This document shows, piece after piece, positions 20,599 through 64,000 of a stretch of 64,000 bases of DNA. Below the pieces are notes generated by a model that was not told where the DNA came from, ran no database searches, and saw only the letters and a program-made list of their open reading frames with translations. This DNA comes from Dioscorea cayenensis subsp. rotundata (lineage: Eukaryota; Streptophyta; Magnoliopsida; Dioscoreales; Dioscoreaceae): assembly GCF_009730915.1 (NCBI RefSeq), contig NC_052487.1, positions 2,418,001-2,482,000 on the forward strand, written 5' to 3'. A program made the position numbers and the translations under genes. How positions within the stretch are numbered: the first letter of the stretch is position 1; the number at the start of each line of letters is the position of its first letter.

Positions 20599-20605
<7 letters not shown>

Positions 20606-20630: not shown

Positions 20631-20635
<5 letters not shown>

Positions 20636-21740: not shown

Positions 21741-21750
21741 CGAGAGAGAG

Positions 21751-28053: not shown

Positions 28054-30431
28054 ATGGCGACGATGGAGTACTGCGTGACGGGAGGGACGGGGTTGATAGG
28101 ATCGTACCTGGTGAAGGCCTTGCTCGACAAAGGCCACAAAGTCCGGGCAACCGTCCGAGATCCCGCCGATGAGACCAAGGTGAGCTTCTTCTTCAGCTTT
28201 CATGGCGCCCAGGAAAGGCTCAAGCTCTTCAAAGCCGATCTAATGGTGGAAGGGAGCTTCGATGAAGCCATTGATGGTGTTGATGGTGTTTTCCACGTTG
28301 CCTCCCCTGTTCTCGTTCCCTACGATGAAAGGATTCAGGTAAGAGAGAGTGAGATCTGAAACCCTAATGCTAATGCCCACCAAGTGTTTGTTGAAATGCT
28401 CAAATGAGTAGAAAGAATGGATTTGTAGGAAACTTTGATAGATCCGACTGTGAAAGGCACGATCAACGTGCTGAGATCTTGCGCGAAGGCAAGATCGGTG
28501 AAGAGAGTGGTGCTGACTTCGTCGTGCTCATCAATCCGCTACTTTGAGGACGCCACTCGCGCGTCGCCGCTCAATGAATCGCACTGGAGCGATCTGGAGC
28601 ATTGTATTCGAAACAATGTGCGTTGATTCCTGATTTTTGTTGAGTTTTTTTTAGGGATTTGATTGGGAATTTGGTTGGAATCGCAGTTGTGGTATGCGTA
28701 CGCGAAGACGACTGCTGAGAAAGAAGCATGGCGGCTTGCGGAAGAGCTAGGGTTTGATTTGGTGGTGGTGAACCCTTCCTTCGTTATTGGGCCGGTGATC
28801 TCGCCGGAGCCGACGAGCACTCTCCGGTTGGTCCTCGCCCTACTCAGAGGTCTCACTCTCACTCTTTGATTCCTTTTTAAATATTTATGAAAAAAATAAT
28901 TTTAGAATATCTCCAATCAAGAACCGGCTCGCAAATAATTGTATGTCACTGTAGCAGTACTATTTATTTATTTATTATTATTTTTTTTTTGCTTTTCTGT
29001 TTGTTTTTTATGTTTTATATTTATTTTTTTCCCCTATTTTTTTGTTTTCTTTTTTTATTTCTAATTTCATATTTTAATCAAATTAATAACTTTATGATTT
29101 AAGTTTATATTTTTAAATTAATAAAAAAATTAAAAATTAAAAATTTAAAAAAAATAATACATGAAATATTAATTTATTAAAATAAAAAAATTACACAAAA
29201 TAAAATAAAAACATAAAAATAATTTTAACATGGATTATCATTGATAGTAATAAAAAAAATCAAACCACAACCATGTCCCAAAATTAAAGTTGATTAAATT
29301 TGTTAACACTAGGAATATATATAAATTGTTAAGTGGGAATAATATTTTTTAGAATATTCTATTTTAAAGTAAAAAATAGAGTTGATGGGCGGAGAAATTT
29401 TCACCTTAGAAACTTTATTTTTATGTGTTGAAACTTCAAATATAGAGTTTTGGGTTAGAGATGTATAAATGCTGATAATTTAAAAAAACTATAAACAAAA
29501 TTTGAACTTTTCAGAGATGTTAAGTCATTTTATTTATTTGGGTTATAGCTGATCCATAAAATAGCTCAATGGTATAGGACAAAAATGGCAAGGGTTGAAA
29601 AGCAAAGGTTTAAATCATTTCCCGGGAGAACTAGGGGAATAGTAATTTTTTCCATTTAGGGATGCAAGGTAGACAAGCCATCGTACCATCTCCATATATA
29701 TCTTATCCTTTGGACAATCATTTAAATAGGTGCATTTAAGGTTTATTTGTAAAAAAAATATTTATTTGGTCTCAATAATTATAATTTTGTTATGATATAT
29801 ATAAAAGAACAAAGTTTTTTTTATTTTTTTGGAAAGAAATAAGAGTAATTTCAACATTCCGTAAGAACATAGGCAAATACTTACATTTAAATCTCTATAT
29901 ATCTCTCTATTAAAATAAAAACAAAATTTAATGGAAGTTTTTGGACTGTAAGAATTAAGTATTTATTTCATGTGCATAAATATGATGGTAATTTTTAAAA
30001 TCAGGTGAACGAGATGAGTATCCGAACAAAACACGTGGGTTTGTGCACATAGAGGATGTGGTGCGAAGTCACTTGTTGGCAATGCAAGATAGCAGAGTCA
30101 CAGGCAGGCTTGTTTGTTCAAGCAATGTGGCTCATTGGTCTGAAATTCTTGAAATGCTCAAGACCAAGTACCCTTCTTATGCTAATGCAATACCTACCAA
30201 GTCAGTGCAATTTATTTATATGATTTATGTTTTTAATGTCTTATTTAACTGTTTAATGAAATTTGAAATTAATGGATATCCAGGTGCAGTGTTGTGCAAG
30301 GAGATGACAAACCACACAGCATGGATTCCAGCAAGCTCATCAACTTTGGAGTTCCAGCATTGAAGACTATTCCTGAGATGTTTCATGACTGCATTAAGAG
30401 CTTCCAAGACAAAGGGTTTCTCACTCATTAA
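28054..30431 (+). CDS. TKPR2: TKPR2-like tetraketide alpha-pyrone reductase, copy 2
   Basis: Exons 28054-28338, 28429-28617, 28687-28849, 30005-30200 and 30284-30431 have exactly the same lengths as those of copy 1 and give 326 residues. The glycine motif TGGTGLIG and catalytic YAYAK are preserved. The few substitutions against copy 1 are scattered, for example SFFFSF for SFLFTF, FHVAS for FHAAS, NPSFVIG for NPAFVVG and NKTRGF for NKTVGF. The leader is a GA-rich run (about 27996-28050) partly duplicated relative to copy 1, and TATAAATA lies at 27915-27922. A poly(A) signal AATAAA is at 30470-30475. The gene converges on the intact ERF, with 343 bases between the stop codons. Both paralogues look functional; whether they are redundant cannot be told from sequence. 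Confidence 0.9.
29548..29640 (+). repeat. Possible tRNA-derived SINE remnant in intron 3 (copy 2)
   Basis: TAGCTCAATGGTATAGGAC resembles a pol III box A, and about 40 bases later AAAGGTTTAAATCATTTCCC resembles a degraded box B. The order and spacing suit a tRNA-related SINE head. The same patch is in copy 1 near 23340-23410, so it predates the duplication. No poly(A) tail or target duplication is clear. Confidence 0.35.
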
Positions 30432-30774
30432 CCTTTTCTTGTTTTAAGGTCAAAAGTTTTACTTCAATCAATAAAGACCCATCTTATTTTAAGGAAGACA
30501 CAAAGCATCAATGTTGAGAAGTATCAAATAATTATCAACTTGTTATATGGTCATTAAAATAACCAATCATAGAATTGACTTTAAACATACAAACCAACAA
30601 GATTCATAAAACTTCTTGGACGGTGGGTGGGTGCTTAAACCCCGGAAAAACCCAAGAAATTTTTTACATGCCAATGCGAACAACCAAACACTATGACATA
30701 AATTGAGACATAATATTAATAATAATAAACTAATTTTTGTACTCCCTAAAGCCTGCAAAAAAAAATGTATTATC

Positions 30775-31548
30775 TCATATATCAAAGCTGAAATCCATCC
30801 ACTCATCAAGATCAGCAAAATCCAGCCCGGTTAAATCAGAGACGCTTGATATATGTTCCCAAAATGGTGATTCTGGTTGCAACCCGAAACCCGGTAACGT
30901 CATTAACGGATCCTCTCTAACGAAAAACTCCGTTAACATCCTCGAATCCGCATCCGCAAACACGTCAAGCACTGAAGCAGGAGATGGGACTGAGAACAGA
31001 TTCGGATTCGGTTGCTGATAAGAGGATCCGGAAACAGTGGCGGCGGCTGCGGCGGCGCGTTTCTCGGCGTCGATGCGACGGGAAGCGGCTTGGTAGGCGA
31101 GAGCGGCTTCGTGCTCGGTGTCGTACGTGCCAAGCCAGACCCGAACGCCCCTTAACGGGTCGCGGATCTCAGCCGCCCATTTGCCCCAAGGGCGATATCG
31201 GACTCCTTTGTGCTTCGAGGATCCGATAGAGGATGAAGGTAAGAGTTTTCCGTTTTTAGCCCTCGAAGCAGTCAGGGTTTTACGGGGTTTAAAGGAGATG
31301 GGGCCAATCGCGAGGGAGGGCAAGATGGGGATTTCACGCAAAACACGCTTGGCTTTCTTCCGGGTTTCGTATTCGGGTTCATCCTCGTCGCTGGATGAAT
31401 CCGTAGCGTCGGGGTCGGAGAAGACGACGCTGAGCTTTCGGAGTTGCCGTTCGGATTCGGGTCGGGCTCTCAGTTTCGGATCCGGACTTTTTCCCCACTT
31501 CCTCCGCATCCGATTCTGATTCACCAGCTGCCGCTGCGGACCTGGCAT
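30775..31548 (-). CDS. AP2/ERF transcription factor, CRF-like (group VI/VI-L)
   Basis: The coding region is intronless, 257 residues. The AP2 domain (about 114-166) has [17 protein letters not shown] and [20 protein letters not shown], with the Ala and Asp typical of the ERF subfamily. N-terminal to it, [20 protein letters not shown] (37-56) is the CRF domain that defines cytokinin response factors. The C-terminus ends in an acidic segment, [15 protein letters not shown], a likely activation region. By overall form it is closest to the CRF10/ERF118 branch. In the 5' region a conserved donor-like CG|GTATGC (near 31757) and T-rich tract suggest a leader intron, which is inference. It is convergent with TKPR2-like copy 2 and is the intact counterpart of the pseudogene at 24556-24764. 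Confidence 0.92.
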
Positions 31549-32153
31549 TTTGTTTTTCTCTCCCTTTTTTTCCTCAAAAAAAAAAAAGGTTTTTCTTTTC
31601 TAGGGTTTCAAAATGATATCTATAAAATGAAGAAATCCGAAGGATTTTAATCTGTAACCAGCCCTGAAAGCATGAAAAATCAACATAAAATCTTCAAAAA
31701 CAAAAGAAATTTCCAGACCTAAAGAAAGAACAAAGAAAAAGGGGAAAAAGAGCATACCGTGAGGAATGGAAGGGCATAGACGTTGAAACGGATCCTCTTT
31801 GCGAGCGGGGACGAGAAGAGGAAGAGAAGAGAGCGAAAGAGAAGGATTCAGAGAACCCAGAAGACATAAATCCCAGCGCTACTCTGCTCCCCCGCTCCCA
31901 ATCCCCCCCGCCCAACCAAAAGAGGAACCAAAAGGAGCCACCTTTGAGAAGAGAGCCGCATTTAAAGCGAAAACAAAGCCCCCACTCTCTAAGTGGATAG
32001 ATAGATGAGGAATCAATGGTTGAGATTTCTCTGATTAATCTTTCTATCAATCTGCGCGAATCTTAAAGCCTTTCATATTAACTAAATAAATTTATTTATA
32101 AAATACTTATTGTATTATTTATTTATTTATTTGGGAAAAATAAATAATTGGGG

Positions 32154-42984: not shown

Positions 42985-43886
42985 GCTGATTAACTTAATC
43001 TCTTTCAATGAAACTCAAGCCCCAACAACATTTATTAAGATTCCTACAAAATATAACCATTAGAATCAAACAATGCCGCAAAGTGAATCCCAAAGTACTT
43101 CTCTCTCATCTCTGGACAAAAATGACCCCAAATTTCCAAACAAATCCATAAAACTTAACACTCTTCACCCACCATTCTGCTTTAAATGTCAAAACCATTA
43201 CCCCTTTAAGTAAATAAATAAATAAAGGCATAAATATCAAAATAATCATTCTATTTTATGTTTTACGCCTTTAAATCCTCTAATATAAAAATACTGCGAT
43301 TTTAGTCCCTCAGTATTTACATATTTTTTATTTTTTTAACTGTAAAATTCATCCTTTTTAGTTTTTGTATTCTAAATTTTTCACTATTTTTCACTATTTT
43401 TTCGATCCCTCCAGTTCATCAGGACCAAAAAAATATTTTCATCAATAAAAAAAATCAATAAAAAGAATAAAAATGAACTAAAAATGATAGAAATTTATAA
43501 ATATGAGAAACAAAAAAACAAATTTTATATTAGAGGGATTAAAAGAGAAAAAATAAAATAAAATAAAAAGCTATTTTGATATTTTTGACAATAAATAAAA
43601 GATCTCAAATTGCAGAAAAAAATCTATTAAATAAATAAACAAATACGAGAGAGAGAAAAAAAGAACACAGCATTGCATGATAATACTCTTCTCATTGAAC
43701 TTCAATTAATCAATAGAACACTGAAAACGTTTCCCAAACTGTGTTGTTTTCACTCACAAGCTACCACCTTTTTGTACAAAAATACAAAAAACGAAATAAA
43801 ATAAAAACGCTAACTTTTTTTGTTTTTCATTTTTCCACAATCTTCATTCATCTCTGGCTCTCAAAACTCTGAACTTTTCATTTTTT

Positions 43887-44255
43887 TCAAGCATTGTTTG
43901 CAGAGCTTGGGATTTCATGGATGTGTTGAAGCTGCCAAATATCATGATAATCTTCCCAAAATGCCCCTCCAACTCTGTTTTCAGACCAGAGGAAGTCTTC
44001 TTCTCCAAATGGAAACCATCCAAGAAGCACTTCATCTTCAACTCCCCACCACCACCCACACTCACCGGAGAAATCCCACAAGCTCTGCTCTTCCTCGGCC
44101 GGCGGCAGCGCCGGAGGTGGTGCTTCGAGGGGAGCTTCCGGTGAAGTTCTCTTCTCCTCTGGGCTCTCCTTCTTCACTTTGGCTGGAGCTTTGGTGGAGT
44201 CTCTGGACTTCTTTTGGGGTTTTGAGAGAGTGTTTTCAGCTCGGGTTCTCTTCAT
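43887..44255 (-). CDS. Small Lys-rich/Trp-rich protein of unknown function, copy A
   Basis: 122 residues, intronless. The N-terminal 40 residues are basic (MKRTRAENTLSKPQKKSR), like a nuclear signal. A Pro/Ala/Glu-rich linker follows. The C-terminal half is acidic and rich in Trp (SLWDFSGECGWWWG, DFLWSENRVGGAFWEDYHDI). I do not recognise the family; the composition would fit a small nuclear regulator. The start is the internal ATG after the leader; a TATAAAAA box lies about 90-100 bases upstream on the minus strand. The coding sequence is base-identical in its copy at 56885-57253. Confidence 0.6.
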   Translation of the reverse strand: MKRTRAENTLSKPQKKSRDSTKAPAKVKKESPEEKRTSPEAPLEAPPPALPPAEEEQSLWDFSGECGWWWGVEDEVLLGWFPFGEEDFLWSENRVGGAFWEDYHDIWQLQHIHEIPSSANNA

Positions 44256-45360
44256 CGTTTTCGTTTCCGTTTTTCTATTTTCACTGTGTGTGTGCGTGTT
44301 TTTTTTTATAAATTTTTGGGTTTCTGTTTTCTGTTTTCTGGTTTGGTTTTTATAATAAGTAACACAGGGTTTGGACTTGGATGTACGAAACGAAACCACT
44401 GGCGTTCCACTGTTCTACTGTCTCTTTTCTCTCCTTTTAGCTTAACGTGGACCACCATCTCGGTATTTTTAAATATTATATTTTTATTATAGGTGTATAC
44501 ATGTATGACCTTGAAAATATTGGAAATTTATGCAATCACGTACCCCTCGTGGCGTTTGGTTGGCGGGCAATTTGGGTTTGTTTTCTTGAATTAGTACACC
44601 AGAGAAAAAACTCATCAAAATTTAATGTACATCTTCCGTTGAATTAATCAAATTTATTATTTTTGTTTGCCACGTAAGTCAAGACATCTCGAGGCCAGAA
44701 AGAGCAAGCACTCAAGTGGCAACTCAACCTAATCGGCTTTCTTTAATGCACTTGTAATTATGTATTTTTTCTTTTTAGTCTTTTAATATTTTTTAAGACT
44801 GATTAAGTTTTTCGTATTTAGTCAATTGGATCATTCTGGTCCAGATGTGTAAATGGATGAAAGTGTAAAATTCTGATGAGCTAATTATCGTAAAAATATT
44901 ACGAGTGGATTAGAGCAATAGCGATTCGACGTAAAATATGAGAACTAAATTATACCAAAAATATTAAAAGGACTAAGAAGACAGAAAGTACATAATTATA
45001 GGGATGGCAATTAAACTTATTTCTTTTCATATTTTACCAATATATTTAATTATAAATATATTTTTATTAAAATACTCATAACCAAGCTTTCTATGACCTT
45101 ATTAAGGAAAATAAAAGTGAGATAATTCTAAAAGTCTCGAGTTCTCTTTTCTCCGGTTTAAAAGTACGTAGATTGGACAATTAATTCCCAACATTAATTT
45201 TTTTCATCTATATTTTTTTGTTTCATTTTTATAAGTGTCAAAAATGATGAATAATATAAATTTATTTAAGGGAATGAAACGCTGTTCTAGAAGGATCGTT
45301 GGCTCAATGGTAGAGCCCCGATGTTCCAATGGCCTAATCTTTTAAGTGAAAGCAAACATC

Positions 45361-46180
45361 ATAATGCCTTCTTTCAATGAACTTGCCCATTTGTTGGAAG
45401 ATTCTCCTTTTTCTGAGGATACTGATGTTGCCTAGCTTCGGGTTTTGCTAAGATCAAGCGATTGGGAGGCGATGGACATTAAATGTTGGTCATTTTCAGG
45501 AAATGGTTCATTCACGTTAAATCCGTACTATAACTTTCTTAATGATGGTGGGTTACGTTGTAAATTAATGAAGTGTTTTTGGAGAAAACATTGTCCATTG
45601 AAAATCAACATTTTCTATGGCTTGTTTGGAAGGATAAGATCCTAACCCTTGAGAATCTTAAAAGCAGACGCTATAACAGACTCGACAAACGAACTGTGTG
45701 ACGCGTGTCGCGATATTGAATCGAGTGGATCATTTTGTTTCTTCACTATTCGTTTTGCAAAGGGTGTGTGAGTTTTTCTTTGGAAGGTCGCTGTGCCCTG
45801 CTCTTTCAAAGATGATGAGTACTATCTGGTGTTCTTGGAGATGGAACATGAGTCCGACGGCTAGGGTGGTTACGGACATAGTGATCAAGGCGCTTGTTTG
45901 CCATATTTGGCTGGCTAGGAAGGCTAGGAATGATAAAAAATTTTAATGCTAAAATTCTTCATGTTCATTGCATTGTCCTGAATATTACTCGGATGATTTT
46001 ATCGTGTCTCGATGCGCTTGCAGATAACGTCAAAGGGAAGCTGGAAGACTCTATTTCTATGATTCGGCCCAATCTCAAATTCTTGGGGCCATGGGGACAG
46101 CGCCACTTTGGGTAGTGCCACTGCTCGAGGAGGCACCCGGATCCCTGCCACGGGGTAGTCTATCATCTTTTGAATGTGGG
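45361..46180 (+). mobile_element. LINE relic: reverse-transcriptase zinc-binding region, copy A
   Basis: Translated fragments (WSFSGNGSFTLNPYYNFLND, KCFWRKHCPLKINIF, TARVVTDIVIKALVCHIW) match the C-terminal zf-RVT region of plant LINE ORF2 proteins. The frame is interrupted many times and the polymerase core is absent, so it is a dead 3' fragment. In this copy the segment 45675-45790 is scrambled by small indels relative to the copy at 58361. Just 5' of it (45297-45330) a tRNA D-arm-like string, TTGGCTCAATGGTAGAGCC, occurs. Confidence 0.75.
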
Positions 46181-46333
46181 CTCGAGGGAAGCCGTGTTGT
46201 TTTCTTCGGTGGTTTTTAGTTTGTATCTCGCTCGTATCACGTATTGTGGTGTGGGGGTTATTTTATGGGTTCTTGTGTTGCGTGTTCTCGTGTACTTATG
46301 TTTTTGTTTTTAATTTAAGTGGTTTTATCTACT

Positions 46334-46340
<7 letters not shown>

Positions 46341-46366
<26 letters not shown>
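46341..46366. repeat. (TA)13 microsatellite at the LINE 3' end
   Basis: A 26 bp TA run follows the LINE remnant. The counterpart at 59352-59377 is the same length, but there it is preceded by about 20 extra T. Confidence 0.75.
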
Positions 46367-46369
<3 letters not shown>

Positions 46370-47386
46370 TTTATTTAACAAAAAATAAAGAGTTACATAT
46401 ATAAAATTCTTGTAATGTAATATAAACATACATATATATTTACATATTTCTTTGTTTTAAATAAAAATTATTTTTAAATCCAACACAAATAATTAATTAA
46501 TTATGGAAAAATTGGAAAAGTAAAATTTATATAAAAAAAATTAATAATTTTATGGAGTGTCGTGGCATGTCAAGTAATAACCCAACATTTCAGTTTTCTG
46601 TGCTTCATCAAGGGTCCAATCCAATCCACAGTCAAACAGTGCTGACAAACCCTCACCTTAGCCGTCCAATTCCAACCAGGCCCCCTTCACTTTAATTTTT
46701 TTATTTTTATTAAAAATAATATATATATATATATATATGTTCCAATATCAAACACTATAAAAAGATATAAATATAGATATCTTATCCACTGTCTCCACTA
46801 TGTCTCATGTCTCAATTAATAGACATGCAACAACATAGCTGTCCTTTTTTTTTTTTTTCTAATCTTAATTAATTAATTAATTAATATAATTTTTTTTTTA
46901 AAAAAAAAGTACTAATTGGTAAATTAATCTAAGTAATGTCGGCACCTGGAAGGTAGCTGGCAGTGATGGCAGGCATGAAGTCAGTGAGATGGTGGCCTAA
47001 CTGGCTAAACAGCACCACATATCCAGCCAAATAACAACTGGTCAGCCACGTTAGGTCTAACCCAACCCAATGTAACACAACTTGTTTGGACTCTCTCTTT
47101 CTTCTCTTCCTTTTCAATCAATTAACTTATCACTTTCTCAACTTTACCTGATAACTTGGTCTGTCTCCTCTTGTTAGTTCTGGACCACACTTGTGCCCAC
47201 TACCTATATTTTTCTTTTTCTTTTTTTTTTAATGATTTTTTTTCAAATATGTTTTTAATAACTGTGCCTGTGTGCCTATAGCACATAGAGTGTCTGTAGT
47301 CTATGAATAAAAAAAATCCATTTCAACCGTATGTTAAAAAAACCAATTTGAATTGAGATTTGGTGGGAAAAAAATATGCCTATAAC

Positions 47387-47422
<36 letters not shown>

Positions 47423-48970
47423 GACTGATCATATAAGAATATTCTTAGATAATTATTAATCATTGGATTTGAACCTAATGGTTTCAGATTATTCACTCTA
47501 GTAAACAATGATTTATAAACAAAGATATCAATGAATCAAAGTAGAATAATAAAAAAAATAATATATACAGTATTTCCATTTTAACAATTTGAATCCAATG
47601 GTTTTAAATTATTTATTTTAATAAATAGTGATTTATGAACAATGTTGTCCATGGTGTAAAGTAAAATAAACAGAGAACAACTGGATACATAGTATTTTAA
47701 TTTCACTTGTTCAATCACGATCACAATAATAATATAATAAATCACACTAATTCACTCTTATTTGTACCATCACCCCTCTTAGATGTGGACACCATGGAGT
47801 TATATATATATTTTTTTGTTAGAGCAAGGAGTGTTATGGCCATAGCTATTTGAAGACCAAGTTATTTAAGGACAAATATATTTGAAAGACATAAATTTGG
47901 AGTGTTATGATGTGAGAAAACAAACTAGTTATTGGCAAAAAGAGCTATGAAGGAATTGAGTGTATCAACTTGGACTGGCACAACGGGAAGAGTTGGATGC
48001 ATGACATGCATCATAAGGCCACGTTGCAACAAAAAACTGAACTCGACCAAGCATGTAACAATGATCACTTTGGTTGCAAAGTTCGAGTCACACATGAGTC
48101 AGAACTATATTTTGAATGTTAAGACGCTCATATGTTAAAACTCATGTATGAGATTTATAATTTGACATCGAGAGAGATCCAAAATGTGAACATAAACGTG
48201 AGTGTACATTGACCAATCTAATTATAAGGTTTTTTTAAACATTTTTTTAGTGAATTGTTATTTCTAAACTCGATCGTCAAAAATATTGATAGATTGTATT
48301 GAATTAGATTATTAATTTATGTGTTTCTTATTTTTAATTATTTAATTGTACACTAAATATTTATAATTATATTCCAGGAGAAATTGAGCGAAAATCATTG
48401 AACCAATGCTCTCTCAAACTAAAAATATATATATATTTATATTTATATAACATACACACAAGTTACGTGTGAGAAAGGAGGTGGCGTGCAACACGTCAGA
48501 TTCCTCGTATCAGATGAAATTAATGAATGAATTAATTAATTAAGAAAAGGGCCAAAAAAAATGAGAGGTGGAATGTGGGTGGCGCAGTGGATACTAAATA
48601 TAAAAAGAAAAAGAGAGCACGTGAGAAGGGCGTGGGGGACTTTTGGGTCAGGGGAAGGGGACAGCCTTGCAAGACGTGGGGCCCTGGTTTGTTGGGCCAT
48701 GCGTTCATCATGTGTCCTTTGTGTGGGGCCCACGACAACTAAGACTAGTCTTGTCAACTTGTGGATTTTTTTCTAATAAAAATTCTTATATTATATATAT
48801 ATATATGTACGATTTTTTGGAGGTTGATTAGACGGTGGGTTTCTTTGCATGTCGGCCAAGTTGTATTAAATGTCCTCTTATAATGATCCGCAAGACCACG
48901 TTTAGTCTTTTTTTATCATTTTCATGCTTAGTCTTCGTTACGTGCATCACACTTGCGTCTGTTTTCTCTC

Positions 48971-49033
<63 letters not shown>
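48971..49033. repeat. (TAA)21 microsatellite, copy A
   Basis: A perfect trinucleotide run of 63 bases. Identical in length to the run at 61956-62018. Confidence 0.95.
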
Positions 49034-49317
49034 GAGTTGCAGTTGAAAGCCCAACTCGAACTGGGCCAGCCTAATAAAATATGGGCCACTAACCTTCACA
49101 TGAGAAAGTTGAATATTTCATATTCAGATATAAAATCAATGGTTTTTTTCAAATTTATATCTGATTCTTTAAAAATAGTTATTACATTTCACCCCACCCA
49201 ACCCCCCTAATACTGTAACAAAAGAGTTTGTATTTCATTTAACAATTTCATAGTAAAAAAATGCCAAATAATATTTCTCTTTCACAATAGTTTAGTTGAG
49301 GCTAATGATTTGTCCAC

Positions 49318-49349
<32 letters not shown>

Positions 49350-49621
49350 TTCATTTACCTTTCAATTCTAAAATTAAAATGCCATCTCATAATTTATATA
49401 TATTTATTAAAAAAATATCAATATTAAACTACTTTTTTTATTCCTTTTCATTCTTTTTTTATCCCGTCACAAATTCACGATATCCGTCTATTTTCAACAT
49501 CAAGAAGATTTATTATTATTTTTTTCAAAAATTACCCTTAACACTCGATTCAGTTTTCTTTTTGGATTTAAATATGAGATAGAACTGTGAAGATATAAAT
49601 TAGAGGTAATTTTAAAAATAG

Positions 49622-50149
49622 TGGCAAATATTGGCTCGATATCCCTTGGGATGAAGCTCAAATCTCGATCCTTTTTAATCCAACCGCTTAGATTGCTCTA
49701 TTGCTTATATAGTAGCTTATGCTTTTGTCGGGTGTTTTCTAACGAGAGAAGAGAAAGAAAGATAAAGAGGGTAAGTTCTCTCAGTATTTAGAGAGCGAAA
49801 AGAGTGAAGGTGTAGAGTGAGAGCTCTTGCTCTGCTTTTATCTCATTAAAGCAAAGATAAAACTCTTGTTTTTTTATGGTAAGACTAGTTTTTAGAGTTT
49901 GGTAATTCTCTGTGGCTTACGCCTATTTCTCAGACTCGTTATTCCTCCACGATATAAATGAAACATCGTTCTCCTGCACGTAGGCTTGCTTTTTAGCTCA
50001 CGCTAAATCGCGTCTCTTACTTTATTCTCGCGAGATCGGTCAGACGTTATCCCTCAGATCGCCCATTCATCAGCTGCATCACAGGTGATTGCGATATCGC
50101 ACACCAAGTCGTTCAACGATCACACATTAGTTCCAGCTGCTTCACTACA
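49622..50149 (+). mobile_element. Solo LTR, Ty1/copia-like, copy A
   Basis: About 530 bases beginning TGGCAAATATTGG and ending near CTACA, with typical LTR content: a promoter-like TTATATAG, a GAGAGAAGAGAAAG leader and a central CTCATTAAAGCAA. Related LTRs lie at 53574-54111 and 62609-63126. No primer-binding site, polypurine tract or gag-pol sequence adjoins it, so it is a solo LTR. Compared with 62609-63126 it is enriched in CG where the other copy has TG. Confidence 0.65.
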
Positions 50150-51000
50150 CAACAAAAAAATAACTAATTTTTTTATAAAAATTTTGAAAATAACTAAGTT
50201 TTTTAAGATACGAGATTCTTGCTAACCAAACAGTATAAAAACGAAAAGGAGGGAGTAATGTTTTTTTCTTTGCTAGAATTATACAAAAATTTGGTAAGAA
50301 TATTTTATATATTTTACCTAATCAAAGATCAATATTGCCAGATCTATTAATTTTTTTGCTTTTTTACGTGATGAAAGAATACTTTTTTCAGAAAATATGG
50401 ACAAACTATAAAAACCTCAAATCAACCTTTAATTATGGACAAAAAAATATAATACTAAACTCTCCTATCGTATGGCGGTAAGATAATATAATATTAAATT
50501 TTTGAAATAAATATAGCTCATTATCATACCCTAAAGAATTATATTTCTTTTACAAAAACTTTCAAACGACTAAGTTGTCTCATGCTAAATTTAAGTTTTT
50601 GCTTTTTACCCAGTATCTTGTTTGTTTATAATGAAGCTTATATACATTACTAAAAATATTTAGATACAAGTAAATTATAATTAAACCCATCTTGATTCAT
50701 TGATTTTTTAATAAAAAGATAAAACTATTATTTTATTATCTTTATTAGCTGTGCTGAATTACTTTTATAAACATTTCATCAACTTTCGGTGATTAAGAAC
50801 CTAATTTGTGGAAGTTAGTAAATAAATCATTCTTCTTTTTCTTCACACTTTATTCATGTTTTTGCAAGTAAAGTGGTCAAAAAGAGATTTAACAAAAAAA
50901 GAAAAAGAAAAAAAAAGAAAGAAAACCATCAAGGAAAAAATAAAAACAGCAAGCATTAACAAGTCTTCACCAATGCTTCTTTTATTAGATGTTGAATTTT

Positions 51001-52145
51001 GCATAGCAAAGCGGCAAAGAATGCATTAAACTTAAGTTACTTAACCAATAAATAACGCCAAAGAATATTATTTTAAAATTTTAATTGATAATATTGACCG
51101 AAAGACTCATATTACATGTGATGTCACCACGTTATGTCATATTGGCCATCACATTACACCGACTTCTCTTTATATTATATATATATATATATATAGTTTT
51201 CCTAAAGAATATAAAAATTTTTTTCATGAATGGTATAAATAAATCGCCTAAATAAATGCAACTAAATTCATATCAAATAAAAATTTGAGAATCCCTGTGA
51301 GAATGGGAGGAAGAGTCTTAAATTTCAAAACTACTTTTTTATTTTTATTTTTATAATTCTACATTTTACTTTCACTGTTTAATGGGTTGGTTTTAGCCAC
51401 ACAAAGAATTAATAAGTGAAAAAACTAAAATTAGATAGCCATTAATGAATATAAGAAAATATCAACTAAATAAATGGTAACCTAAATTCATGCAAATAAA
51501 TCCACATCAAAATAATTAAAAAATATAAAAAAAAAATGTCGGAGGAGTTTTGCCATAACAATAGAAAGCTTTAACAAGTTTTTTTTAATAAATTGGTGAT
51601 AATTTTTTTTTGTTGCATTGTATTTCAGAGGTAAAGTAAAAAAATCAATAGACTATGTCTTAACTCTTAAGCTTTAACAAGCCTTTTTATATATATATAT
51701 ATATAGTTGCATTTTGCAGACAAAAGCGACAAAGAAAACTTTAAACTTGACTAACAAGTAATGGCCAAGATTATTGTTTTAATTGATGATATTGACTTAA
51801 AGACTTACATTACATATGATGTCACCACACTATTTCTTATTAGCTACCACATTACACCTACTTTTCTTTTCATATTATATATTAGAAAATAATAACATAT
51901 TCTATTAAATAAATAAGATTTTCAGGTATATAGTTTTTTGAAATATTATAAATTTTTCATGCATTGGTATAAAAATTACTTTTTTTCAAATTTTGGGAGT
52001 GAGACTTTTCACCATTTTACTTTTCACCATTTATTGCGGTTTTCACAAATAACTAGTCAAAAATGATTAAAAAGAAGAGATAGTCATCAATGAATATCGG
52101 AAAAATATTAACTAAATAAAAATAACTTAAATAAATACAATTTAG
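51001..52145. repeat. Diverged direct repeat, period about 650-700 bp
   Basis: The segment 51000-51510 recurs at about 51700-52145. Shared landmarks are GATGTCACCAC (51121, 51820), ATTACACC(G/T)ACTT (51152, 51850), GGTATAAA (51231, 51965) and AATGAATAT...AACTAAATAAA (51444, 52090). The copies have diverged considerably and have no coding content. Confidence 0.6.
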
Positions 52146-53573
52146 AAAACAAAAATTAAGAGGGCTCCACCTCCCTACGTGATGTCCCAACAATTTATTT
52201 TTGAAGTATTTTTAAACCAATCCAAAAACTATATTGTTTTTTGAATTTACCAATGTTGTCGACTAGTTTCTGCATTAAATCGATCAAAAGCCGTGAGTTT
52301 GAATTAATGTGTTCAACTGGGTTGAACCATATCAATAATAAAATATTAAAAATATATTATAATAATTAATAAATATAAAAAATAATATAATTTCTATTTT
52401 TCATAACTAAAAAAGTATAATTAATTAAATTTAATATTTTTATTTTTATTTTAATTTTAATTTTAATTTTATATACAAATTTTAACTCCCTAAAACTATA
52501 AAATATTGTAAAAAAATAAAAATCTCAAATTCACTCGTGCCACTCGGAACCTCAAAAACCACTCACTTCTCTTCTTTCTTCCACCATTGTTTTTCCCTTC
52601 TTCTTAGTAACCTAATGAAACCCCCCTCTATCCCCCGCCGTTGCTTCTCCTTTGTTTTTTCTCTATCACAGTAATCTATCTAACCACTCTTTCGCCAGTC
52701 ATTACTCATCCTTCACTAGAGATGGCAACAACTAGGGTATAGATGTGGTATATCAAAAACTTTATTCTTACCTGTAACCCCTACCTTATACCTATACTAT
52801 TACCTGTACCCTCAAAGACAAAAGAAATAATATCTTTATCCTTACCCGCATCGTGACTCCACTTTTCACCTATTGTTCAAAAATACCAAATTAACATTAA
52901 ATAATAATAATAAATAACAAATAATTCATGAATGGAAATTTCATGAGACAATCTGTAAGAAAGGAAAAGCCTCACTTGAGGGTAGGATACATCATTGCCA
53001 TCTTTTATCCTTTACTCTCGCCTCCTCTTAATCGATCACCCTTAGAATCATCCACTCAAATCGCCTCCATTGCTGGCCGGGTCATCGTGTACTTAATCTG
53101 GTCAATCAGCCCGAGCTTAAGGGCATGCCTCGAACAATGCTCATGACCTGTCTCCCTGTTAGACCCAATGCCTGTGTTTAATTACATACATTGGAATTTA
53201 CATTGCAATTGTATAAACAATGCTTGTATCCTAACCATAAATACTATTCAAGAACATGGCAAACTTACATTTTAAGAAAATGTTAGGTTTAGTTTTGAAA
53301 TAGTAAGACCACATCTGTTGTGTAATAAAAGTCAGAATGAGTTTATATATAGCATAGAGGTTGGGAGTCACTAAGTCTTGAAACTTTTGTGTGAAAGAAT
53401 TCTAAGTCCATATAGAGCCCATATAGAGCCCACTAAGATCAAAAATATAAAATCTAATTGGCTCCGCCACGCAACTATAGAAATGTTAAAATGGAAGCAC
53501 CATAACAACGATAACGCACATCGCGATCGTAGCAATGTTATTATTCACATATGTGGCCTCTTGTGCTCGGACA
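52146..53573. other. Intergenic with scattered repeat debris
   Basis: No gene is supported. A stretch around 52720-52870, with GAGATGGCAACAACTAGGGT followed by repeated ACCT(G/T)TACCC-like motifs, resembles the ends of plant non-autonomous DNA elements that start with GATGGCAA. The rest is unremarkable. Confidence 0.4.
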
Positions 53574-54111
53574 TGTTAAATATTGGCTTGATATCCTTGG
53601 GATGAAGTCAAATCTGATCTCTTTAATCCAACGCGTCGGATTGCTCTCATTGTTTATATAGGCTATGCTCTGTTAGTGTTAAGTGAAAAATGAGAAAAAG
53701 AGAGAGAGATAGAAATGGTGAATTTCTCTCAGTATTTGGAGAGTGAAAAGAGTGGTGTAGAGGAGAGCTCTTTGTTTTGCTGATCTCATTAAAGCAAGGT
53801 AGGACCCTTGTTTTTGAGGTAAGGCTAGTTTTTGTAGCTTGCAATCCCTCTTGCTGGTTTTATGTCTATTTCAGGCACTTGTACTTTTTGTTATTCCCCC
53901 ATGCTATAGCGAAGCATTGTTCTCCGTGACGTAGGCTTGTCTCTTTATCTCGAATCCATGTTAAATCGCGTCTCTTTACTTTATTTTTCCTCGAGGTTGC
54001 TGTATGTTATCTTTCAGCATTGCTTCATTCTATTGTGTGATCGCGTTACATGCGAGCATTACACACCGTGTTTAACGAATCGCCACTACTAGTCCCTGGG
54101 CGTGCCTCACA
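53574..54111 (+). mobile_element. Solo LTR, same copia-like family, diverged copy
   Basis: Begins TGTTAAATATTGGCTTGATA and aligns along its whole length to the LTRs at 49622 and 62609, including GAGAGTGAAAAGAGTGG, CTCATTAAAGCAAGG and a final GCCTCACA. It lies outside the 8 kb repeat and is more diverged, so it is a separate insertion of the same family. Confidence 0.65.
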
Positions 54112-54990
54112 TACCTGACAACACATACCATCCTCGCACACCCTTTTGTCACACTCCATCGCTGCTCTCTCATCGCTGCGCACACCGCCCACTATCAACC
54201 TTCCGCGAACAAAAGATTATTGTTGCAAAGACATTGTTTACCAACACTGTATTAAAATTTTATGTTTATGTACAAGCTTTGTGCAAGCTCGCACAACTCT
54301 TCACCAAGTCGTGGGTCTCGCGGTGGACGACACTACCCGTACACCTTTTCTCGCCAAGCTTTGCATAACCTCTCATCTCGTAAATGGCTTCCAAATAATA
54401 ATATAACTTTTACAAATTAGAAAATAACCCTCTTGTAAATTCATAATGAGATAGTAACTCTAAAAACCTCGACAAATGCACATACAAATTTTCTAATCGA
54501 GAAACCACGTGACTCTTTAGAGTCACTTAAGAATGCTTCACTACATCAATAATGGAATACAAGACGATGTTCTTCTAAATATAACTAGAGGATCGCAACC
54601 AAAGATATAACAAATCAACAACTCAAAAATAGATAACAATAATGACATAAAAAGAGATCAAAGGATCATCAAATCACGATGGGTTGTAGAGCTACTTGCA
54701 AGGATCGACTCACCGTAGATTTGTGACAAAATTCAGCACCATTTTACCATCTCGACTTCTCTGCCAAGCTCACCCTAACCCCTTCTTCTCTTCTTTTCTT
54801 AATTTCCTTGCTCATTTTTCTCCAACCCCCGATTCATCTCCATGTGTCACTCGATTTCTAATCCCAAATGGCAAATTAGCCACTTTGCCCTCAAATTGTT
54901 AGGAACTACTACTGTATACAATCAGATATCTATTATTCAGATAGCCACCTTATTTATATAACTCGGTATCTATATATACCAGTATCAGAG
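54112..54990. other. Unassigned sequence up to the gap
   Basis: No recognisable gene. Short open frames near 54100-54400 and 54700-54900 have no family signature. The last bases before the gap, CCAGTATCAGAG, resemble the copia primer-binding site TGGTATCAGAG, so the contig may stop just inside a retroelement. Confidence 0.35.
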
Positions 54991-55990
54991 NNNNNNNNNN
55001 NNNNNNNNNNNNNNNNNNNNNNNNNNNNNNNNNNNNNNNNNNNNNNNNNNNNNNNNNNNNNNNNNNNNNNNNNNNNNNNNNNNNNNNNNNNNNNNNNNNN
55101 NNNNNNNNNNNNNNNNNNNNNNNNNNNNNNNNNNNNNNNNNNNNNNNNNNNNNNNNNNNNNNNNNNNNNNNNNNNNNNNNNNNNNNNNNNNNNNNNNNNN
55201 NNNNNNNNNNNNNNNNNNNNNNNNNNNNNNNNNNNNNNNNNNNNNNNNNNNNNNNNNNNNNNNNNNNNNNNNNNNNNNNNNNNNNNNNNNNNNNNNNNNN
55301 NNNNNNNNNNNNNNNNNNNNNNNNNNNNNNNNNNNNNNNNNNNNNNNNNNNNNNNNNNNNNNNNNNNNNNNNNNNNNNNNNNNNNNNNNNNNNNNNNNNN
55401 NNNNNNNNNNNNNNNNNNNNNNNNNNNNNNNNNNNNNNNNNNNNNNNNNNNNNNNNNNNNNNNNNNNNNNNNNNNNNNNNNNNNNNNNNNNNNNNNNNNN
55501 NNNNNNNNNNNNNNNNNNNNNNNNNNNNNNNNNNNNNNNNNNNNNNNNNNNNNNNNNNNNNNNNNNNNNNNNNNNNNNNNNNNNNNNNNNNNNNNNNNNN
55601 NNNNNNNNNNNNNNNNNNNNNNNNNNNNNNNNNNNNNNNNNNNNNNNNNNNNNNNNNNNNNNNNNNNNNNNNNNNNNNNNNNNNNNNNNNNNNNNNNNNN
55701 NNNNNNNNNNNNNNNNNNNNNNNNNNNNNNNNNNNNNNNNNNNNNNNNNNNNNNNNNNNNNNNNNNNNNNNNNNNNNNNNNNNNNNNNNNNNNNNNNNNN
55801 NNNNNNNNNNNNNNNNNNNNNNNNNNNNNNNNNNNNNNNNNNNNNNNNNNNNNNNNNNNNNNNNNNNNNNNNNNNNNNNNNNNNNNNNNNNNNNNNNNNN
55901 NNNNNNNNNNNNNNNNNNNNNNNNNNNNNNNNNNNNNNNNNNNNNNNNNNNNNNNNNNNNNNNNNNNNNNNNNNNNNNNNNNNNNNNNNN
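54991..55990. other. Assembly gap of exactly 1000 N
   Basis: A round-number run of N is a placeholder of unknown true size. Nothing can be said of its content. Confidence 0.99.
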
Positions 55991-56884
55991 GCTGATTAAC
56001 TTAATCTCTTTTCAATGAAACTCAAGCCCCAACAACATTTATTAAGATTCCTACAAAATATAACCATTAGAATCAAACAATGCCGCAAAGTGAATCCCAA
56101 AGTACTTCTCTCTCATCTCTGGACAAAAATGACCCCAAATTTCCAAACAAATCCATAAAACTTAACACTCTTCACCCACCATTCTGCTTTAAATGTCAAA
56201 ACCATTACCCCTTTAAGTAAATAAATAAATAAAGGCATAAATATCAAAATAATCATTCTATTTTATGTTTTATGCCCTTTAAATCCCTCTAATATAAAAT
56301 ACGCAATTTTAGTCCTCGTATTTACATATTTTTATTTTTTAACTGTAAAATTCATCCTTTTTAGTTTTTGTATTTACAAATTTTCACTATTTTTTCACTA
56401 TTTTTGATCCCTCCAGTTCATCAGGACCAAAAAAATATTTTCATCAATAAAAAAAATCAATAAAAAGAATAAAATGAACTAAAATGATAGAAATTTATAA
56501 ATATGAGAAACAAAAAAACAAATTTTATATTAGAGGGATTAAAAGAGAAAAAATAAAATAAAATAAAAAAACTATTTTGATATTTTGACAATAAATAAAA
56601 GATCTCAAATTGCAGAAAAATCTATTAAATAAATAAACAAATACGAAAAAAAAGAGAGAAAAAAGAACACAGCATTGCATGATAATACTCTTCTCATTGA
56701 ACTTCAATTAATCAATAGAACACTGAAAACGTTTCCCAAACTGTGTTGTTTTCACTCACAAGCTACCACCTTTTTGTACAAAAATACAAAAAACGAAATA
56801 AAATAAAAACGCTAACTTTTTGTTTTCATTTTCCACAATCTTCATTCATCTCTGGCTCTCAAAACTCTGAACTTTTCATTTTTT

Positions 56885-57253
56885 TCAAGCATTGTTTGCA
56901 GAGCTTGGGATTTCATGGATGTGTTGAAGCTGCCAAATATCATGATAATCTTCCCAAAATGCCCCTCCAACTCTGTTTTCAGACCAGAGGAAGTCTTCTT
57001 CTCCAAATGGAAACCATCCAAGAAGCACTTCATCTTCAACTCCCCACCACCACCCACACTCACCGGAGAAATCCCACAAGCTCTGCTCTTCCTCGGCCGG
57101 CGGCAGCGCCGGAGGTGGTGCTTCGAGGGGAGCTTCCGGTGAAGTTCTCTTCTCCTCTGGGCTCTCCTTCTTCACTTTGGCTGGAGCTTTGGTGGAGTCT
57201 CTGGACTTCTTTTGGGGTTTTGAGAGAGTGTTTTCAGCTCGGGTTCTCTTCAT
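56885..57253 (-). CDS. Small Lys-rich/Trp-rich protein of unknown function, copy B
   Basis: The same 122-residue protein as at 43887-44255, with identical sequence. If the 8 kb repeat is an assembly duplicate, the genome holds a single such gene. Its frame is untouched while the surrounding repeats differ between copies, which is mild support for real coding. Confidence 0.6.
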   Translation of the reverse strand: MKRTRAENTLSKPQKKSRDSTKAPAKVKKESPEEKRTSPEAPLEAPPPALPPAEEEQSLWDFSGECGWWWGVEDEVLLGWFPFGEEDFLWSENRVGGAFWEDYHDIWQLQHIHEIPSSANNA

Positions 57254-58360
57254 CGTTTTCGTTTCCGTTTTCTATTTTCACTGTGTGTGTGCGTGTTTTT
57301 TTTTATAAATTTTTGGGTTTCTGTTTTCTGTTTTCTGGTTTGGTTTTTATAATAAGTAACACAGGGTTTGGACTTGGATGTACGAAACGAAACCACTGGC
57401 GTTCCACTGTTCTACTGTCTCTTTTCTCTCCTTTTAGCTTAACGTGGACCACCATCTCGGTATTTTAAATATTATATTTTATTATAGGTGTATTTTTTTT
57501 TTTTTACATGTATGACCTTGAAAATATTGGAAATTTATGCAATCACGTACCCCTCGTGGCGTTTGGTTGGCGGGCAATTTGGGTTTGTTTTCTTGAATTA
57601 GTACACCAGAGAAAAAACTCATCAAAATTTAATGTACATCTTCCGTTGAATTAATCAAATTTATTATTTTTTTGTTTGCCACGTAAGTCAAGACATCTCG
57701 AGGCCAGAAAGAGCAAGCACTCAAGTGGCAACTCAACCTAATCGGCTTTCTAATGCACTTGTAATTATGTATTTTTTCTTTTTAGTCTTTTTAATATTTT
57801 TAAGTACAATTAAGTTTTCATATTTAGTCAAATTGGATCATTCTAGTCCGATGTGTAAATGGATAAGTGTAAATTACAATGACTTAATTATACATAAAAA
57901 TATTGCAGTGGATTAGAACGACACAATTCGACCAAATATGAGAACTAAATTATACCAAAAATATTAAAAGGACTAAGAAGACAGAAAGTACATAATTATA
58001 GGGATGGCAATTAAACTTATTTCTTTTCATATTTTACCAATATATTTAATTATAAATATATTTTTATTAAAATACTCATAACCAAGCTTTCTATGACCTT
58101 ATTAAGGAAAATAAAAGTGAGATAATTCTAAAAGTCTCGAGTTCTCTTTTCTCCGGTTTAAAAGTACGTAGATTGGACAATTAATTCCCAACATTAATTT
58201 TTTTCATCTATATTTTTTTGTTTCATTTTTATAAGTGTCAAAAATGATGAATAATATAAATTTATTTAAGGGAATGAAACGCTGTTCTAGAAGGATCGTT
58301 GGCTCAATGGTAGAGCCCCGATGTTCCAATGGCCTAATCTTTTAAGTGAAAGCAAACATC

Positions 58361-59165
58361 ATAATGCCTTCTTTCAATGAACTTGCCCATTTGTTGGAAG
58401 ATTCTCCTTTTTCTGAGGATACTGATGTTGCCTAGCTTCGGGTTTTGCTAAGATCAAGCGATTGGGAGGCGATGGACATTAAATGTTGGTCATTTTCAGG
58501 AAATGGTTCATTCACGTTAAATCCGTACTATAACTTTCTTAATGATGGTGGGTTACGTTGTAAATTAATGAAGTGTTTTTGGAGAAAACATTGTCCATTG
58601 AAAATCAACATTTTCTATGGCTTGTTTGGAAGGATAAGATCCTAACCCTTGAGAATCTTAAAAGCAGACGCTATAACAGACTTCCGACAGCAACCTGTGT
58701 GACGTGTCACGCTGATATTGAATCAGTGGATCATTTGTTTCTTCACTATTCGTTTGCAAAGGGTGTGTGAGTTTTCTTTGGAAGGCTGCTTTGCTGCCCT
58801 GCTCTTTCAAAGATGATGAGTACTATCTGGTGTTCTTGGAGATGGAACATGAGTCCGACGGCTAGGGTGGTTACGGACATAGTGATCAAGGCGCTTGTTT
58901 GCCATATTTGGCTGGCTAGGAAGGCTAGGAATGATAAAAAATTTTAATGCTAAAATTCTTCATGTTCATTGCATTGTCCTGAATATTACTCGGATGATTT
59001 TATCGTGTCTCGATGCGCTTGCAGATAACGTCAAAGGGAAGCTGGAAGACTCTATTTCTATGATTCGGCCCAATCTCAAATTCTTGGGGCCATGGGGACA
59101 ACTGCCACTGGGTAGTGCCACTATCGAGGAGGCACCAGATCCTGCCACGGGGTAGTCTATCATCT
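58361..59165 (+). mobile_element. LINE relic: reverse-transcriptase zinc-binding region, copy B
   Basis: The better preserved of the two. A frame reads KDKILTLENLKSRRYNRLPT and then CVTCHADIESVDHLFLHYSF, the zf-RVT zinc motif (C-x2-C...H...), with Tyr where the last Cys is expected. Stops and frameshifts remain (near 58435, 58645 and 58770). No endonuclease or polymerase domain is present. Confidence 0.78.
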
Positions 59166-59346
59166 TTGAATGTGGGCTCGAGGAAGCCGTGTTGTTTTCT
59201 TCTGGTGGTTTTTGTTGTATCTCGCCTGTATCACGTATTGTGGTGTGGGGGGGTTATTTTGTGGGTTTGCTGTGTTGGTGTTCTCGTGTACTTATGTTTT
59301 TGTTTTAATTTAAGTGGTTTATCTACTTTTTTTTTTTTTTTTTTTT

Positions 59347-59377
<31 letters not shown>

Positions 59378-60374
59378 AATTTTATTTAACAAAAAATAAA
59401 GAGTTACATATATAAAATTCTTGTAATGTAATATAAACATACATATATATTTACATATTTCTTTGTTTTAAATAAAAATTATTTTTAAATCCAACACAAA
59501 TAATTAATTAATTATGGAAAAATTGGAAAAGTAAAATTTATATAAAAAAAATTAATAATTTTATGGAGTGTCGTGGCATGTCAAGTAATAACCCAACATT
59601 TCAGTTTTCTGTGCTTCATCAAGGGTCCAATCCAATCCACAGTCAAACAGTGCCGACAAACCCTCACCTTAGCCGTCCAATTCCAACCAGGCCCCCCCTT
59701 CACTTTAATTTTTATTTTTATTAAAAAAATAATATATATATATATATATATGTTCCAATATCAAACACTATAAAAGATATAAATATAGATATCTTATCCA
59801 CTGTCTCCACTATGTCTCATGTCTCAATTAATAGACATGCAACAACATAGCTGTCCTCTAATCTTAATTAATTAATTAATTAATATAATAAAAAAAGTAC
59901 TAATTAGTAAATTAATCTAAGTAATGTCGGCACCTGGAAGGTAGCTGGCAGTGATGGCAGGCATGAAGTCAGTGAGATGGTGGCCTAACTGGCTAAACAG
60001 CACCACATATCCAGCCAAATAACAACTGGTCAGCCACGTTAGGTCTAACCCAACCCAATGTAACACAACTTGTTTGGACTCTCTCTTTCTTCTCTTCCTT
60101 TTCAATCAATTAACTTATCACTTTCTCAACTTTACCTGATAACTTGGTCTGTCTCCTCTTGTTAGTTCTGGACCACACTTGTGCCCACTACCTATATTTT
60201 TCTTTTTCTTTTTTTTTTAATGATTTTTTTTCAAATATGTTTTTAATAACTGTGCCTGTGTGCCTATAGCACATAGAGTGTCTGTAGTCTATGAATAAAA
60301 AAAATCCATTTCAACCGTATGTTAAAAAAACCAATTTGAATTGAGATTTGGTGGGAAAAAAATATGCCTATAAC

Positions 60375-60410
<36 letters not shown>

Positions 60411-61955
60411 GACTGATCATATAAGAATATTCTTAGATAATTATTAATCATTGGATTTGAACCCTAATGGTTTCAGATTATTCACTCTAGTAAACAATGA
60501 TTTATAAACAAAGATATCAATGAATCAAAAGTAGAATAATAAAAATAATATATATACAGTATTTCCATTTTTAACAATTTGAATCCAATGGTTTTTAAAT
60601 TATTTATTTTTAATAAATAGTGATTTATGAACAATGTTGTCCATGGTGTAAAAGTAAAAATAAACAGAGAACAACTGGATACATAGTATTTTAATTTCAC
60701 TTGTTCAATCACGATCACAATAATAATATAATAAATCACACTAATTCACTCTTATTTGTACCATCACCCCTCTTAGATGTGGACACCATGGAGTTATATA
60801 TATATTTTTTTGTTAGAGCAAGGAGTGTTATGGCCATAGCTATTTGAAGACCAAGTTATTTAAGGACAAATATATTTGAAAGACATAAATTTGGAGTGTT
60901 ATGATGTGAGAAAACAAACTAGTTATTGGCAAAAAGAGCTATGAAGGAATTGAGTGTATCAACTTGGGTAGCTTGACGGGAAGAGTTGGATGCATGACAT
61001 GCATCATAAAGGCAGCGTTCTGACAAAAACTAGACTTCGGTCAAGATGAACAATGATCTTTGATTGCAGTTGAGTCACGCATGAGTTATGCTATATTTAG
61101 AATGTTAAAGGCGATACATATAAAAAGCTATGTTATGAGATTTATAATTTGACATTGGAGAGAGATCCAAATGTGAACATAAATGAGAGTGTACATTGAC
61201 CAATCTAATTATAAGGTTTTTTTTAAACATTTTTTTAGTGAATTGTTATTTCTAAACTCGATCGTCAAAATATTGATAGATTGTATTGAATTAGATTATT
61301 AATTTATGTGTTTCTTATTTTAATTATTTAATTGTACACTAAATATTTATAATTATATTCCAGGAGAAATTGAGCGAAAATCATTGAACCAATGCTCTCT
61401 CAAACTAAAATATATATATATTTATATTTATATAACATACACACAAGTTACGTGTGAGAAAGGAGGTGGCGTGCAACACGTCAGATTCCTCGTATCAGAT
61501 GAAATTAATGAATGAATTAATTAATTAAGAAAAGGGCCAAAAAAAATGAGAGGTGGAATGTGGGTGGCGCAGTGGATACTAAATATAAAAAGAAAAAGAG
61601 AGCACGTGAGAAGGGCGTGGGGGACTTTTGGGTCAGGGGAAGGGGACAGCCTTGCAAGACGTGGGGCCCTGGTTTGTTGGGCCATGCGTTCATCATGTGT
61701 CCTTTGTGTGGGGCCCACGACAACTAAGACTAGTCTTGTCAACTTGTGGATTTTTCTAATAAAAAAATTCTTATATTATATATATATATATGTACGATTT
61801 TTTGGAGGTTGATTAGACGGTGGGTTTCTTTGCATGTCGGCCAAGTTGTATTAAATGTCCTCTTATAATGATCCGCAAGACCACGTTTAGTCTTTTTTTA
61901 TCATTTTCATGCTTAGTCTTCGTTACGTGCATCACACTTGCGTCTGTTTTCTCTC

Positions 61956-62018
<63 letters not shown>
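61956..62018. repeat. (TAA)21 microsatellite, copy B
   Basis: A perfect trinucleotide run of 63 bases, the same length as in copy A. Confidence 0.95.
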
Positions 62019-62305
62019 GAGTTGCAGTTGAAAGCCCAACTCGAACTGGGCCAACCTAATAAAAATATGGGCCACTAACCTTCACATGAGAAAGTTGAAT
62101 ATTTCATATTCAGATATAAAATCAATGGTTTTTTTCAAATTTATATCTGATTCTTTAAAAAAATAGTTATTACATTTCACCCCACCCAACCCCCTAATAC
62201 TGTAACAAAAAGGTTTTGTATTTCATTTAACAATTTCATAGTAAAAAAATGCCAAATAATATTTCTCTTTCACAATAGTTTAGTTGAGGCTAATGATTTG
62301 TCCAC

Positions 62306-62337
<32 letters not shown>

Positions 62338-62608
62338 TTCATTTACCTTTCAATTCTAAAATTAAAATGCCATCTCATAATTTATATATATTTATTAAAA
62401 ATATCAATATTAAACTACTTTTTATTCCTTTCATTCTTTTTTATCTGTCACAAATTCATGATTTTTTTTATCTGTCATTTTCAACATCAAGAAGTATTTA
62501 TTATTATTTTTTTCAAAATTACCCTTAACACTCGATTCAGTTTTCTTTTTGGATTTAAATATGAGATAGAACTGTGAAGATATAAATTAGAGGTAATTTT
62601 AAAAATAG

Positions 62609-63126
62609 TGGCAAATATTGGCTTGATATCCTTGGGATGAAGCCAAATCTTGATCCTTTTAATCCAACTGTTTAGATTGCTCTATTGTTTATATAGAGTT
62701 ATGTTTGTTGGGTGTTTTCTAATGAGAGAAGAGAAAGAAAGATAAAGAGGGTAAGTTCTCTTGTATTTAGAGAGTGAAAAGAGTGAAGGTGTAGAGGAGA
62801 GCTCTTGTTCTTGCTTTATCTCATTAAAGCAAGATAAAACTCTTGTTTTTTAGGTAAGACTAGTTTTTAGAGTTTGGTAATTCTCTTGTGGGTTTATGCC
62901 TATTTCTTGTACTCTTGTTATTCCTCCATGATATAGTGAAACATTGTTCTCCCGTGGATGTAGGCTTGTTTTTAGCTCACGTTAAATTGGTGTCTCTTAC
63001 TTTATTCTTGTGAGATTGGTTGTATGTTATCCTTGCATTGCCCATTCATTGTGTGATTGCTAGGTATTGTGATATTGCACACCAAGTGTTCAACGTATTG
63101 CCACATTAGTTCCGCGTTTCCTCACA
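62609..63126 (+). mobile_element. Solo LTR, Ty1/copia-like, copy B
   Basis: Starts TGGCAAATATTGGCTTGATA and ends near TTTCCTCACA. It reads like the consensus of the family (TGTTGGGTGTTTTCTAATGA, CATTAAAGCAAGATAAAACT, GTGATATTGCACACCAAGTG). It has no adjacent retroelement genes. Confidence 0.65.
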
Positions 63127-64000
63127 CACAACAAAAATAACTAATTTTTTATAAAATTTTGAAATAACTAAGTTTTTTAGTACATGAGATTCGGTTAACC
63201 AAACAGATAAAAATGAAAGGAGGGAGTAATGTTTTTCTTGCTAGAATTATACAAAATTTGGTAAGAATATTTTATATATTTTACCTAATCAAAGATCAAT
63301 ATTGCCAGATCTATTAATTTTTGCTTTTTACGTGATGAAAGAATACTTTTTTTTTCAGAAAATATGGACAAACTATAAAACTCAAATCAACCTTTAATTA
63401 TGGACAAAAATATAATACTAAACTCTCCTATCGTATGGCGGTAAGATTTTTTTTTTTAATTTTTTTTTATAATATTAAATTTTGAAATAAATATAGCTCA
63501 TTATCATACCTAAAGAATTATATTTCTTTACAAAAACTTTCAAACGACTAAGTTGTCTATGCTAAATTTAAGTTTTGCTTTTACCCAGTATCTTGTTTGT
63601 TTATAATGAAGCTTATATACATTACTAAAATATTTAGATACAAGTAAATTATAATTAAACCCATCTTGACCCATTGATTTTTTTAATAAAAAAAAGATAA
63701 ACTATTATTTTATTAAAAAAAAAAAAAATCTTTATTAGCTGTGCTGAATTACTTTTATAAACATTTCATCAACTTTCGGTGATTAAGAACCTAATTTGTG
63801 GAAGTTAGTAAATAAATCATTCTTCTTTTTCTTCACACTTTATTCATGTTTTTGCAAGTAAAGTGGTCAAAAAGAGATTTAACAAAAAAAGAAAAAGAAA
63901 AAAAAAGAAAGAAAACCATCAAGGAAAAAATAAAAACAGCAAGCATTAACAAGTCTTCACCAATGCTTCTTTTATTAGATGTTGAATTTTGCATAGCAAA

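Follow-up and report, generated by a model that had tools for sequence, protein, structure and literature searches.

Homotype false duplications, as portrayed for the Vertebrate Genomes Project in PMC8081667, lie near contig boundaries, are approximately of read length and come to stand in tandem through scaffolding. According to the same account, their copies dovetail, differ in consensus quality and act as attractors in read mapping. As main signs of false duplication, PMC9516828 gives low depth, a gap between the copies on the same scaffold and discordant linked reads. Reliable short-read mapping onto repeats is described in PMC10095996 as not possible. Here we analyze an 8 kb repeat whose two copies lie to either side of an assembly gap in the window, i.e., the whole 64,000-base stretch of DNA under study. 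Judged from its sequence, this repeat is very probably a false duplication, of one haplotype or of two, and not a biological duplication.

The window contains a single run of N, which is exactly 1000 bases long (Table 1). A BLASTN comparison of the window against itself aligned copy A (42985-51010) and copy B (55991-64000) in the same orientation, with 94.8% identity over 8,168 columns, an end-to-end match far beyond chance expectation. Copy B begins at base 55991, where the right contig starts. The first-pass annotation had placed this copy directly after the gap and matched it to 42985-51010 up to the end of the window, in agreement with our BLASTN result. The repeat has a length of at least 8 kb, with the match between copies A and B still running at position 64000. 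Based on the round number, the length of the gap is probably nominal. As in homotype false duplication, the copies lie at contig boundaries and are separated by an assembly gap. The start of copy B and its orientation also fit a dovetail, the right end of which lies outside the window. An onset that coincides with a contig start, a shared strand, a round gap and a match that is still running favor one locus assembled twice. The gap and the geometry suit equally well the other form of false duplication, heterotype, in which copies A and B would be two haplotypes of one locus, both retained in the assembly. We regard this form as a tentative possibility. Both copies hold the same 122-aa ORF, and a longer frame in copy A (43887-44399) had no Pfam match at E 0.001.

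Table 1. Positions of the copies, the gap and the features discussed, given for the window, with the corresponding positions of copy B in brackets.
Feature	Coordinates	Strand	Remarks
Copy A	42985..51010	+	Inside left contig; noisier copy in the three clusters tested
Tail of left contig	51011..54990	+	In the case of a full dovetail, predicted to match the 3,980 bp that follow 64000
Gap, 1000 N	54991..55990	.	Length probably nominal
Copy B	55991..64000	+	From first base of right contig onward; matches A up to window end
122-aa ORF, same in both copies	43887..44255 (B: 56885-57253)	-	
Palindromic, MITE-like element with error cluster	44753..45000 (B: 57760-58000)	.	Arms pair worse in A
LINE zf-RVT reading frame	45564..45698 (B: 58564-58767)	+	Early break in A; longer and open in B
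Largest difference cluster	49388..50731 (B: 62376-63708)	.	C>T 31 times, G>A never (A to B)
Third, diverged copy of a repeat that lies inside the largest cluster	53578..54093	+	Yardstick, located in left contig

A genuine tandem duplication has to be weighed against these readings. It would be very recent, at least 8 kb long and would carry the 122-aa ORF, with consensus errors on top and the contigs breaking off between its two copies. Long repeats of near-identical sequence are places where an assembly can break, and copy number is unobtainable from sequence alone. Such an event would need to be very young, with a copy boundary that coincides to the base with a contig start, and we consider it improbable.

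A pattern search of copy A identified 12 microsatellite loci, 10 of which have the same length in copy B. The unequal loci are a TA run at 46339 and (GA)5 at 43647 (A coordinates). Of six loci with a length of at least 20 bp, five are equal between the copies, among them (TAA)21 with 63 bp, (AT)15 with 30 bp and (TA)13 with 26 bp, or 27 bp including a half unit. The long TA run comprises 28 bp in copy A (46339) and 26 bp in copy B (59352). This difference of one unit counts against a single locus and speaks for two haplotypes, against which the equality of the other five loci speaks in turn. The first-pass annotation had based part of its argument on four microsatellites of equal length. Equality is confirmed for (TAA)21, (AT)15 and (TA)13, but not for the other long TA run, and what it listed separately as "(TA)13" and "27 bp TA run" appears to be one locus, 49323-49349. 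The argument is thus retained in a weaker form, with five of the six loci of at least 20 bp equal and one TA run different. At a rate of 8.87e-4 per allele per generation, as quoted in PMC12339571, no more than one change in six loci would allow the copies to be up to approximately 445 generations apart (194 to 7,970 at the quoted extremes), a limit that applies a dinucleotide rate to loci including one TAA and one TTAA repeat. Such agreement of the microsatellites would be expected of a single locus, but also of two closely similar haplotypes or of a duplication that is very young. For a recent tandem duplication, it allows an age of roughly a few hundred to a few thousand generations.

An affine global alignment of 8,192 columns gave 286 differences between copies A and B, comprising 93 substitutions and 193 indels, values that depend on the gap costs. 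It replaced an initial MAFFT alignment with 319 substitutions and 105 indels, in which noisy patches had been placed as mismatches. At a threshold of at least four events per 100 columns, which was chosen after the profile had been inspected, 247 of the 286 events (89 substitutions and 158 indels) were located in 29 of the 82 hundred-column bins, forming nine stretches. The remaining 5,292 columns contain four substitutions and 35 indels, 30 of which are changes in homopolymer length. The longest runs of identity between the copies are 749, 555 and 439 bp. For substitutions per bin, the ratio of variance to mean is 5.6, whereas 10,000 random placements gave no value above 1.76. On the basis of this clustering, we rejected uniform neutral divergence of the copies. 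The first-pass annotation made no mention of strong clustering. It described the differences as mostly homopolymer lengths, which is correct outside the clusters, but not within them (77 of 158 indels) or overall, where such changes make up 107 of the 193 indels and thus 107 of the 286 events. In six cases in copy A and one in copy B, a run of T or A with a length of 8-21 is shrunk to one or two letters.

The clustered differences look like consensus noise, and this noise-like character favors one locus assembled twice. Their resemblance to noise, and not to alleles, argues against two haplotypes, for which the four isolated substitutions in the 5,292 clean columns are as expected from low heterozygosity. 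Identical blocks alternate with diverged ones, a pattern that also resembles conversion tracts, as could be left by an older real duplication that was homogenized by gene conversion save for unconverted patches. However, in the diverged blocks indels exceed substitutions (158 to 89), one cluster has a strand bias of 28:0, and the single comparable coding frame is broken in copy A only (see below for both). We consider this history highly improbable.

The window contains a tandem duplication of its own at 19828-32152, with NAD-epimerase-type reductase-like genes in two copies that have matching open exon-like frames. These two tandem genes lie between 21.7 and 30.4 kb, and among six scanned fragments, those with a match were the first exon-like frames of the two copies. 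The second copy of the duplication includes a full AP2/ERF gene encoding an AP2-domain protein (30775-31548), of which the first copy has a short 5' remnant near 24663-24764. A multicopper-oxidase-like frame is present at 2461-3840. Judged by these genes, the surroundings of the repeat resemble a plant genome. An exact 67-bp direct repeat, arranged head to tail at 23226-23359, is single in the other gene copy (29514-29580) and represents either a duplication of recent date or a further, minor error of the assembly.

As a control, four of the seven between-copy segments of this duplication, the three omitted including the most diverged (79%), were given the same treatment and showed 160 substitutions and 52 indel events, compared with 93 and 193 in A and B. 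The ratio of variance to mean was 1.0-2.9, the longest identical runs were 71-148 bp, and the numbers of C>T and G>A were similar. The spread of differences that resembles neutral divergence, as in a real tandem duplication, was not observed between copies A and B (5.6; 193 indels to 93 substitutions), a result compatible also with a duplication too young to have diverged. Like copies A and B, the control consists of two direct copies on one strand. Unlike them, it has more evenly spread substitutions, a balance of C>T and G>A and open matching frames. The marked dissimilarity of this control, albeit an older duplication, speaks against a recent tandem duplication as the origin of copies A and B.

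Internal yardsticks cover three of the nine clusters, one each, namely a palindromic element, a LINE zf-RVT frame and a third copy of a repeat. In these three clusters copy A is the noisier copy and copy B is favored. Consensus quality is unequal between the copies in these three of the nine clusters, as it is in homotype false duplication. The palindrome was evaluated in eight overlapping segments. In the segment with the largest difference in arm score, 44753-45000, on which we rely, the arms of copy B align with a score of 57.5 and those of copy A with 36.0. The folding energy of this segment, calculated with RNA parameters, is -88.7 in B and -70.9 in A. Across all eight segments, the arm score is higher in B in seven and tied in one. 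Folding energy clearly favors B in three segments, is within 0.5 in three and favors A in two, which counts against B. In the LINE remnant, the frame of copy B matches positions 28-83 of the Pfam zf-RVT profile with 46.1 bits (cut-off 27.5). The frame of copy A scores 21.4 bits and reaches positions 26-56 only, the remainder being dispersed across other frames.

Within the homology of the third repeat copy, A and B differ at 94 columns. The third copy has the letter of B at 63 of these, that of A at 14 and that of neither at 17 (76, 16 and 35, respectively, when flank columns lacking the third copy are included). Among transversions, 16 agree with B, none with A and seven with neither. The 14 columns at which the third copy, itself rich in CpG, sides with A count against the reading that favors B. 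The third copy may carry noise too, of the same kind as elsewhere in the left contig. Copy B likewise seems to carry errors. At 46845 it has one T where A has a poly-T of 14, and it lacks an 11-base T/A stretch that is kept in A at 46891.

From A to B, the cluster at 49637-50242 contains 28 C>T but not a single G>A (p = 7.5e-9, uncorrected for 13 clusters). The cluster at 44801-44933 has the opposite lean, with seven G>A to one C>T (p = 0.07), and in the other clusters the balance is even or the numbers are too small. The bias of 28:0 is unlike real deamination, because deamination of double-stranded DNA should give both C>T and G>A. We observed that 26 of the 39 C>T sites from A to B precede a G in copy A, mostly in 49388-50731. 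If copy A is wrong, its noise therefore creates CpG sites. Over the stretch homologous to the third copy, CpG sites number 16 in the third copy (53578-54093), 23 in copy A and three in copy B. The position of these 26 sites before G suggested methylation-driven C-to-T decay of copy B. We rejected such decay, as it accounts neither for the 28:0 bias of that one cluster nor for the surplus of indels or the transversions that side with B (16:0, with seven neither). Methylation in bacteria and homopolymer errors are treated in PMC6591954. Our literature search for nanopore errors in methylated plant repeats found no paper on this combination.

The first-pass annotation had interpreted the repeat as the same locus assembled twice, and the geometry, the noise-like differences and the three yardsticks support this interpretation indirectly. 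Within false duplication, we consider two builds of a single haplotype to be the probable form, with some reserve. The right end of the left contig, from 42985 and probably to 54990, would then be the same locus as the start of the right contig at 55991. The assembler would have left this overlap unmerged, most probably owing to excessive local noise in one of the two consensus sequences. The scaffolder would have ordered and oriented the contigs correctly and inserted a nominal gap of 1000 N. During polishing, reads may have been attracted to copy B, leaving the noisy patches of copy A uncorrected beside perfect stretches. If the overlap includes the whole tail of the left contig, its total length would be 12,006 bp, and the next 3,980 bp after position 64000 are predicted to match 51011-54990.

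If the repeat were left in place, one locus with the 122-aa ORF and several repeats would be counted twice, and its errors would be misread as divergence of paralogues or as fast CpG decay. The ORF at 43887..44255, if it is a gene, would receive two annotations. Through clustered and strand-biased noise, a false duplication can mimic a diverged paralogue at 94.8% identity.

In conclusion, read in this way the repeat is a known kind of assembly artefact, which bears on the quality of the assembly and not on biology. With heterotype false duplication as presented in PMC9516828, it shares a gap between near-identical copies on one scaffold. That type is described there for relatively divergent haplotypes, whereas the clean parts of copies A and B are almost identical. 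The homotype cases of PMC8081667 come from the Vertebrate Genomes Project, whereas the present case is from a plant and the right end of its overlap lies outside the window. With homotype false duplication as characterized in that account, copies A and B, on this reading, have in common the same locus at two contig ends, the tandem arrangement, the gap between the copies and their unequal quality.
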